A DNA stretch of 37,222 bases from an uncultured Clostridia bacterium (GTDB lineage Bacteria > Bacillota > Clostridia > Oscillospirales > UBA644): positions 1-37,222 of the forward strand of contig CAOJUB010000019.1 of assembly GCA_948443805.1 (NCBI GenBank), written 5' to 3'. A model generated the notes under the pieces. It saw only the letters and a list, made by a program, of their open reading frames with translations. It was not told the DNA's origin and searched no databases. Below are positions 7,344-19,374 of the stretch, piece by piece (position 1 is the first letter of the stretch; every line of letters begins with the position of its first letter). The position numbers and the translations under genes are program-made.

Positions 7344-8030
7344 ATGAGATTGGACGCTTATCTGTGCCGGGGCGGCTATTCCCGCAGGGAAGCGCAGAAG
7401 ATGATCAAAATAAAATCAGTTACCGTCAACGGGATTGTTCAGAATAATCTTTCTTTTCCGGTAAAAGAAGGAGATTTGGTTTTGGCAGCTGGCGAAGAAG
7501 TCTGGGGACAGGAATGGATTTATCTGGTTTTGAATAAACCTGCCGGATATATTTGCACCACAGATCCCGGCACGCAGTGCGTATTGAACCTGATTCCGAA
7601 AAAATACCGGATTAAGGGGCTTTCTCCCGTCGGACGGCTGGATAAAGAGACTACCGGTCTTTTATTCCTGTCAAATGACGGACAATTAATTCACCGGATG
7701 ATTTCTCCCGGAAAACACCTTTCCAAAGAATATGCCGCGCTGCTCCGCGATCCGTTAACAGAAGAACAGGCGGGTCGGATTTCTTCCGGTCTTACCCTGG
7801 CGGACGGGACGGTCTGCCGCCCTGCGGAAGTGACCGGCCTTGGGGAAAAACAGGTTTCGATTGTTCTGACCGAAGGTAAATATCATCAGGTTCGGCGGAT
7901 GTTTGCCGCCGTTGGAAATTATGTTTGCGAACTGCGGCGGACGCGGGTGGGAAATTTCCGCCTGGAGGAACTGAAAGAAGGCGAGTGCCGGTTGCTTTCC
8001 GCAGATACAGTCCGGAGGATTTTTGAATGA
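7344..8030 (+). CDS. rsuA: RsuA-family 16S rRNA pseudouridine synthase
   Basis: Predicted rRNA pseudouridine synthase of the RsuA/RluB/E/F family, isomerising a uridine in ribosomal RNA (U516 of 16S rRNA if it is true RsuA). The 228 residues fit this family. An S4 RNA-binding domain occupies about 1-60 (MRLDAYLCRGGYSRREAQKM). The catalytic domain follows with LVLNKPAGYICT and the active-site motif GRLDKETTGLLFLSNDG, whose Asp100 is the expected catalytic residue. The closing EGKYHQVRRMFAAVGNYV is also typical. The ATG at 7344 has GAAAGGA 6 bases upstream. Its stop overlaps the next start (ATGA), so the GH42-like gene downstream is translationally coupled. The exact rRNA target is inferred from size only. 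Confidence 0.9.
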   Translation: MRLDAYLCRGGYSRREAQKMIKIKSVTVNGIVQNNLSFPVKEGDLVLAAGEEVWGQEWIYLVLNKPAGYICTTDPGTQCVLNLIPKKYRIKGLSPVGRLDKETTGLLFLSNDGQLIHRMISPGKHLSKEYAALLRDPLTEEQAGRISSGLTLADGTVCRPAEVTGLGEKQVSIVLTEGKYHQVRRMFAAVGNYVCELRRTRVGNFRLEELKEGECRLLSADTVRRIFE

Positions 8031-9475
8031 ACGGTTCGGTTTGCCTGGGCGTTACGGCCGAATACCCCTCTCTGGAATGTATTTCCGATTGCTTTCGGCG
8101 GTCGGAAAACCTGAATGCGGCTGAAATTTTTTTGGACGAAACTTTTTGTTCGGACTTTTTGCCGCTGTATCAGTTTGCTGAAAACCTTTGGCGGCAGAAA
8201 AAGCGCGTGGCTTTTACCTTTGTTCTAGGAAACAGAAAAAAAGGTTTTTTTCAAAATCCGGCAAGGCAAACGGTTTTTCTTCATCATTTGGAAGCTTTTT
8301 GCCGGGATTTTTCGGGTTTGGGAAATCTTGTCGGTCTGAATTTCCATTTTCCATCGGAAGACTTTATTCCGGCGGAATTTCCCGGTTTTTGTTCTTTGGT
8401 TTCCTCTATTTGCTCTGGTTTTCCCGTTTCTCCGGATCTTTATTATTTTTCAAAACGGACTGTGAAAAAATACTTGAGCCATACCTGGGAGGAGCAGCTT
8501 TTTTATCTCGATTTTCTTCGCGGTCTGCAATGGCGCCGTTTTTTTCTCCGGGATTTTTCTAATCTTTCTCTTGCCTTTCTTTCCGGTGCGGGCGGCGTGT
8601 TTACTTCACCGGAGATTTTATGCTCTTATGGAGATCAGCCTCTTCCGTTTCCCGAAAAGGCGTTGCATCTTTTTGGCTCGGCGCGGAGATCCGGGAAAGC
8701 GGCGATTCTGTTTTCTCCGGATTTTATTCAAAATAATGAAGTTTTGCCGGAGAGTGATGTGATTTCTGCGGTATTCTCTCTTTATCGCGATCTTTTGTTT
8801 TACGGGGTTCGGCCGGATGTGACGCCCTCGTTGGGGCAAGGAGATTATTCGGTGGTTTTTTCGCCTTTTTGTTTCGGTTTTTCCCCTGAATTTGATTTTT
8901 CCCAGATGGTTTCTTTTGTTGAAAACGGCGGCGTTTGGGTCTCCGGGCCGTTTACCTATGCCAGCAACAGAGGAAAAAATTCTTCCCGCAGTGTGATGGA
9001 ACGGTTGGCAGAGGTTTTTGTCCGGAGGGCGTTTTTATCAAAGGAGTCGGTTTTGGGCCATTGGAACAGCGGGGAAATTTTTGAAGGCGCTTTTGCTTCC
9101 GAGGGCTATTACCGGGATTCGGATGATTGGGCGTTCGGTGACGATTGTTCGTATATGGTTTGCCGGAAAATCGGCCGGGGCAGGCTGATTTTACTGGGCG
9201 TCATGCCGGTGGGAAAAAGCAGAAAAAAATGGATTGAAACCGTGTTTTCTTTGGGCGGGCTGCGGCCGTCTTTTTCTTTCCCTGCGCTTTGTGAAGCTTT
9301 TTCCGGTACGGAACAAAACGGAGAACCCCTTTGTTTTGACGCGGTGTATTCTCCCGGAAAGAATGGGGAATTTTTTTCGGAAAGCGGAACGATCGATCTT
9401 CTTTCTGGACAGGCCGTTTTCGGCCGACGTTTTGTTGAAAAAGATCGTTTATATCTCTATAAAAAAATGCGCTGA
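8027..9475 (+). CDS. Unrecognised protein with a GH42 beta-galactosidase-like trimerisation domain
   Basis: A 482-residue cytoplasmic protein without signal peptide or clear membrane segment. Residues about 223-345 look like the glutamine-amidotransferase-like trimerisation domain of GH42 beta-galactosidases: AAILFSPDFIQNN, a helix SLYRDLLFYGVRPDV, then YSVVFSPFCFGFS and VSFVENGGVWVSGP. The first 220 residues could be a reduced, divergent barrel, but I cannot see the NE-type acid/base or the nucleophile Glu motifs of GH42. The C-terminal 100 residues form a beta-rich tail. The protein is strikingly rich in Phe, and the coding strand is rich in T runs. Its ATG overlaps the rsuA stop (ATGA). 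The pairing of a pseudouridine synthase with a glycosidase-like protein is unexplained. It may be a non-catalytic or highly divergent GH42 relative; the function is unknown. Confidence 0.6.
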   Translation: MNGSVCLGVTAEYPSLECISDCFRRSENLNAAEIFLDETFCSDFLPLYQFAENLWRQKKRVAFTFVLGNRKKGFFQNPARQTVFLHHLEAFCRDFSGLGNLVGLNFHFPSEDFIPAEFPGFCSLVSSICSGFPVSPDLYYFSKRTVKKYLSHTWEEQLFYLDFLRGLQWRRFFLRDFSNLSLAFLSGAGGVFTSPEILCSYGDQPLPFPEKALHLFGSARRSGKAAILFSPDFIQNNEVLPESDVISAVFSLYRDLLFYGVRPDVTPSLGQGDYSVVFSPFCFGFSPEFDFSQMVSFVENGGVWVSGPFTYASNRGKNSSRSVMERLAEVFVRRAFLSKESVLGHWNSGEIFEGAFASEGYYRDSDDWAFGDDCSYMVCRKIGRGRLILLGVMPVGKSRKKWIETVFSLGGLRPSFSFPALCEAFSGTEQNGEPLCFDAVYSPGKNGEFFSESGTIDLLSGQAVFGRRFVEKDRLYLYKKMR

Positions 9476-9508
9476 AAATGTGTAATATTTCCGGCAGAAA
9501 GGAATCCC

Positions 9509-9665
9509 GTGACCGAAGAGATCAAAAAATATAGCGCTTTGGTATATGGGAAAAAGTATAAATAACGGCAGTCCGGAGGTTTTTCGTTTGAAAAGCCGGG
9601 AGATTCTCTTCTCAGATGAAAACGGCCGGAAATTTTTGTGTTTCTATAAAATAAGGAGGGGTTAA
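9509..9665 (+). other. Two mini-frames with ribosome binding sites in the DUF2461 leader
   Basis: A GTG at 9509 with AAAGGA 5 bases upstream opens an 18-codon frame ending at 9565 (TEEIKKYSALVYGKKYK). A TTG at 9588 with GGAGG 8 bases upstream opens a 25-codon frame ending at 9665, 2 bases before the DUF2461 start. Either could be a leader peptide or chance. No hairpin-plus-T-run was seen in 9476-9667. Confidence 0.25.
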
Positions 9666-9667
9666 CA

Positions 9668-10363
9668 ATGGCTTTTCAGGGATTTTCAAAAAAAGCGGTT
9701 CAATATCTTCATGATGTTTATCAGAATAACAGCAAAGCGTGGTATGAGGCGCATAAAAAGGATTTTGAAGCATATCTGAAAGAACCTTTTTATGAAATGA
9801 TTCTGGAGCTGACGCCGCAGATGAAAAAAATCGACCCTGATTTTATTCTTGAGCCGAAGCGCTGTCTGGCACGGATCTACCGCGACGTTCGCTTTTCCAG
9901 AGACGGTTCTCTGTACCGGAACCGGTTGTGGCTGACTTTTAAGCGCCCGGCTGAAAACTGGCTTGAAATCCCCGCATTTTTCTTCGAACTGACCGAGTCC
10001 GACTGTTCATACGGTATGGGGTATTATACGGCGAAGGCCTCGGATATGGCTGATTTCCGGGATTATATTTCGCAGAATCCGAAATCTTTTCAGGCAGCTG
10101 TCCGGCCGATTGCTGAAAGCGATAGCCTGAGGATTCATGGGGAGACTTATAAAAAGGAAAAACCCGGTGCACCCGCCGGACTGGAAGACTGGTTCCGGTT
10201 GAAAAATTTTTATGTCGGCGCCGTTTCGCCGCTCCAGCAGGCCATGTCTCCCGGGATTGTAAAAACCGTTTCTTCGGCGTTTGACAAGATGAAAGAACTT
10301 TACCGGGTGTTGGCTTTTGATATTCCTGAAATGAAGGCGGAAAAACAAAATGAGTGGTATTGA
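9668..10363 (+). CDS. DUF2461 (TIGR02453) family protein
   Basis: A 231-residue protein of the DUF2461 family, widespread in bacteria and without an assigned reaction. The family hallmarks are present: FSKKAVQYLHDVYQNNSKAWYEAHK near the N-terminus, the motif RIYRDVRFSRD (69-79) followed by SLYRNRLWLTF, and the GYYTAKASDMADFRDYI region. The ATG at 9668 has AAGGAGG 11 bases before it. Its last 14 bases overlap the start of rsmG in another frame, so translation of the two is probably coupled. No ligand can be proposed from sequence. Confidence 0.88.
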   Translation: MAFQGFSKKAVQYLHDVYQNNSKAWYEAHKKDFEAYLKEPFYEMILELTPQMKKIDPDFILEPKRCLARIYRDVRFSRDGSLYRNRLWLTFKRPAENWLEIPAFFFELTESDCSYGMGYYTAKASDMADFRDYISQNPKSFQAAVRPIAESDSLRIHGETYKKEKPGAPAGLEDWFRLKNFYVGAVSPLQQAMSPGIVKTVSSAFDKMKELYRVLAFDIPEMKAEKQNEWY

Positions 10364-11765: not shown

Positions 11766-13382
11766 TTATTGTTCGTTTTTGATCGCTTCTTCCTGTTCCT
11801 GCTGAATTGCCGGATCGTAAGAAAGCATCGGTTTGATGTCTGTTTTCTTTTTCAGTTTTCTGTCGACGTAGTTTTTGGTGATCCGGTAAACCAGTGCGGA
11901 AAGCGAGATTACGCCAATCAGGTTGGGAATCATCATCATTCCGTTAAAGGTGTCGGATATATCCCAGGCAAGGGAGGAGGTCATGACCGCGCCGCTCATG
12001 ATCATCAAGACAAAGAAAACCTTATAGATCATGGTATATTTGGTTCCAAACAGGTATTCCCACGCTTTGGTTCCGTAATGCGACCAGCCGAGAACGGTTG
12101 TAAAAGCAAAAAGGAGAAGTGCAATGGCAATGAAAATACTGCCCAGATGAATTTCCCCGACAGCAAAAACACTGTCAAAGGCTTTGGCTACCAGCGTTGC
12201 GTCACCGGAGGTTCCTTCGGCAAGAAGACCGGTATTCAGATCAATAACGCCGGAGGTCAGAATTACGAGAGCCGTCATGGTGCATACGATTATCGTATCG
12301 GCAAAAACTTCGAAAATTCCCCACATACCCTGAACGACAGGTTCTTTTACATTGGAGTTTGAATGAACCATGACCGAGGAGCCAAGCCCCGCTTCGTTAG
12401 AAAATACGCCTCGTTTAAAGCCCCAGGTAATAACACTTGACAGGGCGATTCCCGTTGCGCCGCCCCATGCCGCTTTCGCGGTGAACGCGCTTTGGAAGAT
12501 CGAGGCGAACGCTGCGCCGACGGCTTGATAATTGACCCCGATAATAACAAGGGAACCGAGAATAAAGGCGCAGACCATAAACGGAACAACCTTTTCCGCA
12601 AAGTTTGCAATTCGCTGGATTCCGCCGATGATAATCAGCGCAGCGAAAATCATCAGAACGATTCCGATTAATATTTTGTACAGATCAATCCCAAAAATCA
12701 TAGTTTCCGACAGGGCGGGAATGACAAACGCGCCCTCAATATTGGCGACAATTTTATTGACCTGACCCATATTTCCGATACCGAAAGAGGCCAGCAGGGT
12801 AAAGAGTGAAAAGAATACGGCAAGTATTTTTCCGACGGTTTTGAATCCCTTTTTTCTGCCGAGTCCGTCCTGCAAATAATACATGGCGCCGCCCGACCAT
12901 TCTCCCTTGCTGTTTTTTCTCCGGTAATAGATGCCAAGAACGTTTTCCGAGTAGTTTGTCATCATGCCGAAAAAGGCTGCCAGCCACATCCAGAACACCG
13001 CGCCCGGTCCGCCGGAAACAATCGCCGCTGCAACGCCGGCAATATTGCCTACGCCGATTGTCGCTGCAAGCGCTGTGCAGAGCGCCTGGAACTGAGAAAT
13101 TGCCGATTTATCCTTGACATGCCCGGACACCTGTTTTTTAAAAACGCTTCCGATTGTTTGCCGGAACCAGTGGCCGATATGGGTAATCTGGAAAAACCGG
13201 GTGAGGATTGTCATCAGGATTCCTGTTCCCAGCAGCAGAACCAACCCGATTTTGACCCAGACAAAATCATTGATCGCATTGTTTACATCGGTAATTGTCT
13301 GCACAATTCCGTTTTCTTTGCAGCCGGAAAACAGCAGCAGAAAACAGGAAAGCAGAGCGATAAAGGGGAGTTTCTTTTTCAT
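11766..13382 (-). CDS. Sodium:alanine/glycine symporter (AGCS family) with an unusual lipobox-like N-terminus
   Basis: Membrane carrier that takes up alanine or glycine with Na+ or H+. The protein has 538 residues with many hydrophobic helices. The AGCS family signature region is present (AAIVSGGPGAVFWMWLAAFFGM; GNIAGVAAAI; GGAMYYLQDGLG; GVFSNEAGLGSS). The C-terminal tail is hydrophilic. Unlike typical AGCS proteins, it begins with MKKKLPFIALLSCFLLLFSGC, which looks like a lipoprotein signal peptide with an LFSGC lipobox, about 20 residues before the usual family start. There is no later Met near that position and AAAGGA precedes this ATG by 10 bases. A tandem glycine riboswitch and terminator lie in its leader, so glycine is a probable substrate and effector. 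Confidence 0.92.
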   Translation of the reverse strand: MKKKLPFIALLSCFLLLFSGCKENGIVQTITDVNNAINDFVWVKIGLVLLLGTGILMTILTRFFQITHIGHWFRQTIGSVFKKQVSGHVKDKSAISQFQALCTALAATIGVGNIAGVAAAIVSGGPGAVFWMWLAAFFGMMTNYSENVLGIYYRRKNSKGEWSGGAMYYLQDGLGRKKGFKTVGKILAVFFSLFTLLASFGIGNMGQVNKIVANIEGAFVIPALSETMIFGIDLYKILIGIVLMIFAALIIIGGIQRIANFAEKVVPFMVCAFILGSLVIIGVNYQAVGAAFASIFQSAFTAKAAWGGATGIALSSVITWGFKRGVFSNEAGLGSSVMVHSNSNVKEPVVQGMWGIFEVFADTIIVCTMTALVILTSGVIDLNTGLLAEGTSGDATLVAKAFDSVFAVGEIHLGSIFIAIALLLFAFTTVLGWSHYGTKAWEYLFGTKYTMIYKVFFVLMIMSGAVMTSSLAWDISDTFNGMMMIPNLIGVISLSALVYRITKNYVDRKLKKKTDIKPMLSYDPAIQQEQEEAIKNEQ

Positions 13383-13468: not shown

Positions 13469-13493
13469 CCAATTTAAGCGCGTAGGTTTTTTC

Positions 13494-13651
13494 CATCTGT
13501 CCTTTTGCCTGAGAGTTTTGGGTTTCCCCTTGCACCTTCGGCCCCTGCGTAAAGCAGACTTCTCCAGAGTACTATCTGTTATCAGTCGTGTTAAAAAACT
13601 ACCTGAGAGCGTTACTCCTTCGGTCGCCAAAAACGGCGGTTTCCTGATAAC
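13494..13651 (-). promoter_or_regulatory. Tandem glycine riboswitch
   Basis: Reading the minus strand, aptamer 1 is closed by an 8-bp P1 stem (GTTATCAG at 13651-13644 with CTGATAAC at 13585-13578). It holds the core CCGAAGGAGTAACGCTCTCAGG. Aptamer 2 (about 13577-13494) holds GGGGCCGAAGGTGCAAGGGG and the textbook ending AACTCTCAGGCAAAAGGACA. The short linker and two CTCTCAGG cores mark the cooperative tandem arrangement. An intrinsic terminator follows. Because the controlled gene is an amino-acid importer, glycine is more likely to turn it off than on, but the direction needs folding of the alternative structures. Confidence 0.93.
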
Positions 13652-18273: not shown

Positions 18274-19374
18274 TCAGGCGGGAAATTCCTGTATTTTTTC
18301 GATCAGTTGACATATCGCTTCTGCTTCCTCTTTGTTTGTCAGCCAAAACTGAATCATCCGGGAGGATTCGGTTATAAAATTTTTGTATGGCAGACGGCAC
18401 AGACTAAAACCGCTGTAGGTTTCCAGATTGCTTTGGTTTGCACATTTCCCGCAGGATACGCAACCGAAATTTTGTATCGCTTTTTGAATCGTTTCCGGCA
18501 GGCTGTTCCTCTTGTCAATGACAACTTTTGCCGCTTCGTAGGAGAGCGGAAGGCAGAGGTATATTTGATTGTATTGAATGTGGAAAGTACAAATGGTTTT
18601 CTTTTTCTGGGTGAATTTGACAATCCAGTTTGGAAAAACATAAGTATTTACAGAAATGTTTGTTTGCAGATGCCTTTCCTGGCAAAGTTTGCCGACCAGA
18701 TTCTTCCACAGCGTTTGCTGATCGGGAATCAGCCCTAATAGGTTCGGATGCAGCGGGGAAAATGCTTCACGGCTCGGGCTGTTTTTTCCGATAATGGTTT
18801 CAAAATCGGCCATTAAAAAGATCGTTGCCGGCGGGGCGTAATCTTTTTTTACTTCCGTTTGGGGGAGTCTGTCGGTCAGATATTTGATTGCCGGCAGCAA
18901 TTGACTGTTCCTTTCATAGAATACCTGGAAAGTATCGCAGGTAGCATAGGTTTTGGCCGGTTGCCCCTGCTTGAAAAAATGAAAATAAAATGCGTGGTTC
19001 GCCAGAAATGGAAGATACTTATTTATTGGTTTTTTAAAGATTTGCTTGAATTTTTGTTTCTCAACAACAAGAGAACCGGTATCTCCGTCCTTTTTTACCG
19101 TTCCGGCAGCGGCGAAGGCATACAGACAAAACGCGGTGTCGGTCAGATAATGGTAGTCTTCCAGATCATTTTGCAGAATGCCGATTTTTGTTTTTATTTT
19201 TTCGGCGGTGGAAATTTTAAATGTTTTATAATCTGCATACAGCGTCCGAAAACATTCTGAAAAAGCGCGCAGACCGGATGTCAGCTCTTCCAGAAGCGAA
19301 AAATTTTTTATCCGTTCATCCGAGATATCGCAAACGCTTCTTTCCCAAAATATGGCTTGGTTTTGAATCGACAT
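18274..19374 (-). CDS. Unrecognised protein with CxxCxxC motif and DUF3788-like C-terminal part
   Basis: A 366-residue protein without signal peptide or membrane helix. The last 150 residues resemble DUF3788 proteins: NWIVKFTQKKKTICTFHIQ, a strand-rich YLCLPLSYEAAKVV, then the FGCVSCGKC motif (three Cys spaced CxxCxxC) and ESSRMIQFWLTNKEEAEAICQLIEKI at the end. The Cys cluster could hold zinc or an iron-sulphur cluster. The N-terminal 200 residues are basic and helical and match nothing I recognise. AAGGG lies 8 bases before the ATG at 19374. It sits between two MerR-GyrI regulators on the same strand and may be a target of either. Family assignment is tentative. Confidence 0.6.
   Translation of the reverse strand: MSIQNQAIFWERSVCDISDERIKNFSLLEELTSGLRAFSECFRTLYADYKTFKISTAEKIKTKIGILQNDLEDYHYLTDTAFCLYAFAAAGTVKKDGDTGSLVVEKQKFKQIFKKPINKYLPFLANHAFYFHFFKQGQPAKTYATCDTFQVFYERNSQLLPAIKYLTDRLPQTEVKKDYAPPATIFLMADFETIIGKNSPSREAFSPLHPNLLGLIPDQQTLWKNLVGKLCQERHLQTNISVNTYVFPNWIVKFTQKKKTICTFHIQYNQIYLCLPLSYEAAKVVIDKRNSLPETIQKAIQNFGCVSCGKCANQSNLETYSGFSLCRLPYKNFITESSRMIQFWLTNKEEAEAICQLIEKIQEFPA

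Follow-up and report, generated by a model that had tools for sequence, protein, structure and literature searches.

A putative GH42-derived pseudoenzyme encoded beside rsuA in two genera of Clostridia

The analyzed window, a stretch of 37,222 nucleotides, is contig C19 of a 35-contig, 1.81-Mb genome (98.85% complete; hereafter G000, genus g1 of family f1). On its forward strand, positions 7344–8030 carry an rsuA-type gene encoding a 16S rRNA pseudouridine synthase of 228 aa. The translation contains S4 and PseudoU_synth_2 domains (Pfam: PF00849, 1.1e-20; PF01479, 7.3e-11) and a GRLD motif, the Asp of which we take to be the catalytic residue. Among the NCBIfam models, TIGR00093 was matched above its cut-off (144.2 bits), and the RsuA equivalog was matched with 158.5 bits, under its cut-off of 275. 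The protein is an ordinary member of the RsuA-type 16S rRNA pseudouridine synthases. The following gene (8027–9475, same strand) starts with ATG and encodes a protein of 482 aa, P0001, assigned as GH42-derived and lacking the catalytic Glu residues on the basis of Pfam, hhalign, fold comparison and alignment. As described in the earlier note, its start and the rsuA stop codon (TGA, 8028–8030) overlap in the tetranucleotide ATGA (8027–8030). A Shine-Dalgarno-like sequence, GGAGGA (8014–8019, forward strand), is located 7 nt ahead of the ATG. On the 3′ side there are a DUF2461 gene and then rsmG (Pfam). Promoter and terminator scans deviated from chance by no more than about 1.3 standard deviations, and no PHROGs match indicative of a phage origin was found.

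P0001 appears to share the three-domain plan of GH42 beta-galactosidases (3TTS, 4OIF, 5E9A, 1KWG, 6LVW), with homologous trimerisation (M) and C-terminal (C) domains and a matching predicted fold; as in those proteins, no signal sequence is visible at its start (by eye). It differs from them in the absence of both catalytic Glu residues, in a putative barrel that spans about 222 residues as opposed to about 370, in its Phe/Ser-rich composition and in its position adjoining rsuA. The M and C domains occupy residues 223–482 (8693–9472, forward strand) and include a GG.W..GP motif at residues 301–308. Residues 215–472 aligned with 17 GH42-type proteins at an hhalign probability of 98.8% (E=1e-16), and the Pfam match to the trimerisation domain PF08532 (E=0.0046, 16.9 bits) was below the cut-off of 25.8. 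A tblastn search of 99 relatives yielded matches in 14 genomes, including the window’s own; in the other 13 the match starts only at residue 195 or later, within the GH42 M+C region, and is placed in a frame of 656–717 codons (12 cases) or in a contig-end fragment (one case). These results bear out the previously noted likeness of the middle of the protein to the GH42 trimerisation domain, and the alignments indicate that the last ~260 residues are genuine, very diverged GH42 M and C domains. Amidotransferase-like structures also appeared among the VIA-align matches of the M domain, which reflects a known relation of that fold. No close relative of P0001 was present in the genome collection, sequence searches against solved structures gave chance-level matches only, and the window’s genome contains no second GH42 with a recognisable trimerisation domain at E <= 0.001.

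The front half of P0001 (residues 1–222; 8027–8692, forward strand) is short in comparison with the ~360-residue Pfam barrel match of ordinary relatives, and the whole protein is about 170 residues shorter than an ordinary GH42. Against the GH42 barrel, hhalign gave this segment a probability of 0.2, which is not significant, and Pfam returned no match to PF02449, in agreement with the earlier view that the 220 residues before the trimerisation-like part are too short and too diverged for a normal barrel. Because piecewise schemes for aligning the barrel failed, the AlphaFold2 model of P0001 was built with homologous rows from residue ~187 on only. Its mean pLDDT is 67.6, with values mostly of 40–70 in the front half and below 50 at residues 1–13, 132–150 and 165–207, among other parts. 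The modelled front half has strands at 31–36, 60–66 and 101–107 between helices at 16–25, 44–56, 78–96 and 121–130. When the model was compared with known structures by VIA-align, GH42 chains ranked first (6lvw: Z 18.7, rmsd 5.2, 424 residues aligned over model residues 3–480), and the Z score against 1kwg was 16.8. On account of the alternation of helices and strands in this moderate-confidence model and its superposition on GH42 structures, residues 1–222 are most likely a reduced, Phe-rich remnant of the GH42 barrel, the register of which was unstable between alignments. The fold comparison that had been proposed as a check thus returned GH42 for a model with neither catalytic Glu and with a weakly aligned barrel.

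GH42 enzymes use two Glu residues, the acid/base and the nucleophile, as well as a conserved Arg of the −1 subsite, according to a published account (PMC12887932). Both Glu residues were found in 38 of 40 aligned GH42-type proteins, the exceptions being P0001 and a protein of Candidatus Geddesella stercoravicola (G002), which represents genus g3 of the same family. In a second set, 87 of 93 proteins had both; the remaining six were P0001, the G002 protein and four incomplete frames (L012, L106, L109 and L143), among which the nucleophile Glu is present in L109 and L143. The statement that P0001 has no visible catalytic Glu motifs therefore held in both alignments, and the Asn-Glu motif of the acid/base is absent from its sequence altogether. 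In the most plausible register, based on piecewise alignment, this motif would be replaced by Phe108-Pro109 (8348–8353, forward strand) at the end of strand 4 (predicted at residues 101–107). The same pair is found in the G002 protein, but since the P0001 alignments are unstable there, a common Phe-Pro is put forward as a suggestion only. The nucleophile position of P0001 weakly aligns with Asp176 (8552–8554, forward strand) or with no residue, depending on the alignment. The GH42 of genome G003, also considered as a motif-less candidate, is intact, since inspection by eye shows it to have the motifs of a different GH42 branch, ISNEY and MES.

The gene of G002 encodes 649 aa and lies on an 8,942-base contig, where rsuA ends at position 742 and the GH42-like frame starts with an ATG at 1138, preceded by AGGAGG. 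Judging from its sequence, it appears to be a second catalytically dead GH42-like gene after rsuA, full-length and in a related genus, which is reported here for the first time. In a phmmer alignment, gap-free through the Cys cluster, the acid/base Asn-Glu of the solved 3TTS meets Phe137-Pro138 of the G002 protein. In place of the nucleophile motif FWNTETS, the G002 protein has YFSCPAFDS; a gap-free reading replaces the Glu with Ala284, and aligners open a gap at this place. The barrel of this protein is recognized by PF02449 with 103.6 bits, as compared with 340.4 and 312.7 in two intact relatives, and its predicted structure (pLDDT 84.5) superimposes on GH42 5e9a with Z 37.1 and rmsd 2.6 over 627 residues. 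Annotation by GH42 family matches alone would count it as a beta-galactosidase.

The extent of the loss was estimated from invariant columns, a column being counted as invariant if 28 or more of the 29 intact GH42 rows agree. Of these positions, 34 of 64 in the barrel and 22 of 23 in M+C have been retained by the G002 protein, and 21 of 30 in residues 187–482 by P0001. In a leave-one-out control with six intact clostridial rows, 80–87 of 87–95 invariant positions were kept. The barrel positions lost in G002 comprise EFA of EFAW, both Glu residues, an Arg near a conserved Cys (in our reading the Arg of the subsite) and E, H and G near strand 8. All four invariant Cys residues of the GH42 alignment, presumably the zinc site of GH42 structures, are preserved in the G002 protein, and P0001 has no C.C..C cluster.

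To place the gene pair in context, rsuA was searched for in family f1 and matched in 20 of 20 genomes. The neighbourhood of rsuA, taken at the closer copy, was inspected in 19 of them (the window genome, G002 and 17 others); G004, with a distant match only, was left out, and in two contexts the downstream stretch was short (about 1.6 kb in L052 and about 2.3 kb in L062). A GH42-like gene follows rsuA in two of the 19 contexts, those of G000 and G002. The pair, the conservation of which the earlier note had proposed to survey, is thus not unique to the window strain. Of the coupling to RsuA that was implied there, the adjacency is shared by these two contexts, but the overlap is not conserved: a 4-nt overlap in the window genome corresponds to a 395-nt gap in G002. 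In genus g6 (G005, L047:3558-4622) the gene just after rsuA resembles, by its start (by eye), a Gfo/Idh/MocA-type oxidoreductase, and the other f1 genera have still other genes directly after rsuA.

Beyond the family, a GH42 M+C match was obtained in 64 of 295 genomes of the order (even draw). From these 64, 21 GH42-bearing genomes of other families were chosen, and none of the 19 with an rsuA-type match has rsuA beside GH42; the only contig shared by both genes, C13 of G055, holds them more than 60 kb apart. In the genome collection, 80 GH42 loci were examined with their fetched flanks, and one of them showed an rsuA match, namely G002 itself. A general rsuA-GH42 link was therefore rejected. 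An acceleration of rsuA evolution alongside its partner was not seen either, as by identity the rsuA sequences of G000 and G002 are about as distant from those of genera g2 and g7 as the latter are from each other.

We propose, with a probability of roughly two in three, that P0001 and the G002 protein are GH42-derived pseudoenzymes, probably of single origin, retained as an oligomeric scaffold and preserved at two stages of erosion beside rsuA in two genera. In the common ancestor of g1 and g3, a GH42 beta-galactosidase gene would have been placed after rsuA and would have lost its sugar-cutting site. A folded, probably trimeric, cytosolic body may then have been kept for a non-glycosidase role, most likely that of a scaffold or binding partner. 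In the window lineage about 145 residues of the barrel would then have disappeared, and the gene would have come to overlap rsuA; as a result of this overlap, rsuA and the GH42-like gene are probably translationally coupled. Of the two possibilities raised earlier, a repurposed glycosidase scaffold is better supported than a divergent enzyme by the GH42-like fold, the loss of both Glu residues and the dead copy in G002. Binding of galactose as a lectin is an unlikely role, since G002 has lost positions that we tentatively ascribe to the sugar subsite.

Glycoside hydrolase-derived pseudoenzymes are known among animal secreted or membrane proteins, such as the chitinase-like lectins and Klotho, in which the fold was kept and the catalytic acids were lost. 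The proteins described here share this retention of a hydrolase fold with lost catalytic acids; they differ in that the gene is bacterial and of GH42 type, the sugar subsite seems to be lost too and the product is not evidently a lectin. To our knowledge, well-documented pseudoenzymes of glycosidase origin are rare in bacteria. Among the matches listed from the open-licence literature, nothing was evidently concerned with a GH42 pseudoenzyme or a GH42 lacking its catalytic Glu, or with bacterial glycoside hydrolase or TIM barrel pseudoenzymes. These genomes offer two stages of the same erosion for comparison, one with the active site lost and M+C near-perfect (G002) and one with much of the barrel lost too (the window), which makes it directly testable why a sugar-cutting enzyme is kept after losing the ability to cut.

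Composition links the two genes as well. Phe accounts for 11.2% of P0001 and 8.3% of the G002 protein, versus 4.3 ± 0.5% among 101 other GH42-type proteins, none of which exceeds 6.2%; Ser accounts for 10.6% and 10.5%, respectively, versus 5.7 ± 0.9% (maximum 7.4; n=101). Each gene contains 48 TTT and 6 TTC codons. The P0001 gene has 40% T at codon position 3, and T at first codon positions reaches 29–32% in both GH42-like genes versus 18% in the rsuA and rsmG genes of the window. The earlier description of the gene as Phe-rich with T-rich codons, unlike its neighbours, agrees with the Phe content of the immediate neighbours (2.2% in rsuA, 6.9% in the other), but such a Phe content is not unique in the window, as values of 12.0% (a DUF2232 membrane protein) and 11.1% are reached by two more of the 27 ORFs examined. 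One may speculate that the Phe/Ser richness reflects a barrel filled with bulky residues. Foreign DNA was rejected on base composition, the G+C content of 8001–10000 being like that of the rest, and the gene is not read as a recent import because the T excess sits within the gene and is common to the G002 copy. A Phe/Ser-rich ORF of 124 aa (8188–8562, forward strand), overlapping inside the GH42-like gene, is read as a by-product of T-rich sequence.

A gene in decay, that is an unneeded GH42 drifting with its frame open by luck or recency, would account for the shrunken barrel, the patchy presence, the loss of 9 of 30 invariant positions even in residues 187–482 of P0001 and the very long branch of P0001 in the M+C tree (3.47 changes per column). 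However, 482 codons remain open behind a good Shine-Dalgarno sequence. Shuffled sequences of the same composition contained on average 22.8 in-frame stops and were stop-free in 0 of 2000 cases; when substitutions were introduced at random in 500 simulations per rate, an open frame survived in 32 at 0.05 changes per site, in 4 at 0.1 and in 0 at 0.2, a value far below the observed divergence. The equally dead copy in the other genus is intact over 649 codons, with all but one of its invariant M+C positions. Decay is thus an unlikely explanation, and as the proteins have changed fast and yet the frames are open, we read the gene as retained under altered, looser constraint.

According to another explanation, which we likewise hold to be improbable, the protein is not dead but a divergent enzyme with an active site rebuilt for another reaction. 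The folded barrel retained in G002, the Asp176 that may occupy the place of the nucleophile in P0001, and the occurrence of a glucosyltransferase and mannosidases among the GH42-like folds in the PDB lists are consistent with such a change. The loss of 30 of 64 invariant barrel positions in G002, both catalytic Glu residues among them, argues against it.

A more specific form of the scaffold reading, in which one clade of gut Clostridia would have turned the dead GH42-derived trimer into a partner that is co-translated with RsuA and dedicated to it, a glycosidase scaffold thereby being recruited into ribosome biogenesis or its regulation, is tentative and rather unlikely. We know of no link between RsuA and a partner derived from a glycosidase, and none of the papers listed from the open-licence literature was evidently on an rsuA gene paired with a beta-galactosidase-type gene.

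Catalysis could also have been lost twice, in two GH42 genes that merely happen to adjoin rsuA. One copy is truncated and the other full-length, and in the M+C tree the proteins stay apart, standing on very long branches and grouping together in 8% of bootstrap trees; their M+C identity is about 20%, as compared with 36–59% for intact GH42s of g2 versus g7 (9 pairs). Such a separation can be expected with two very long branches, yet it lends no support to a common origin. Because of the M+C tree and the 20% identity, the single origin of our preferred reading rests on synteny and species relationship. G000 and G002 are joined in the rsuA tree (85/89) and likewise in the GroEL tree (89/88), and are not grouped in the RsmG tree; support for their kinship from rsuA and GroEL is moderate, owing to the long rsuA branches in both genomes. 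Against independent losses, no intact GH42 examined adjoins rsuA, be it in the f1 contexts, the 19 genomes of other families or the 80 loci with G002 as sole match, and chance adjacency of a given pair is estimated at about 1 in 1,000 (for roughly 2,000 genes), so that two separate losses seem quite improbable. That an ordinary, active GH42 was misread through bad alignment, for which the unstable barrel alignments of P0001 would speak, is hardly credible in view of its missing ~170 residues and Asn-Glu motif and of the full-length, well-aligned G002 copy without both Glu residues.

Elsewhere in the window, two reverse-strand genes (1387–2313 and 18274–19374) encode proteins of 308 and 366 aa, respectively, without a Pfam match at E <= 1e-5. 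A glycine riboswitch (13487–13577, reverse strand) is located upstream of a gene encoding a sodium:alanine symporter (11766–13382, reverse strand), which is a sensible pairing.
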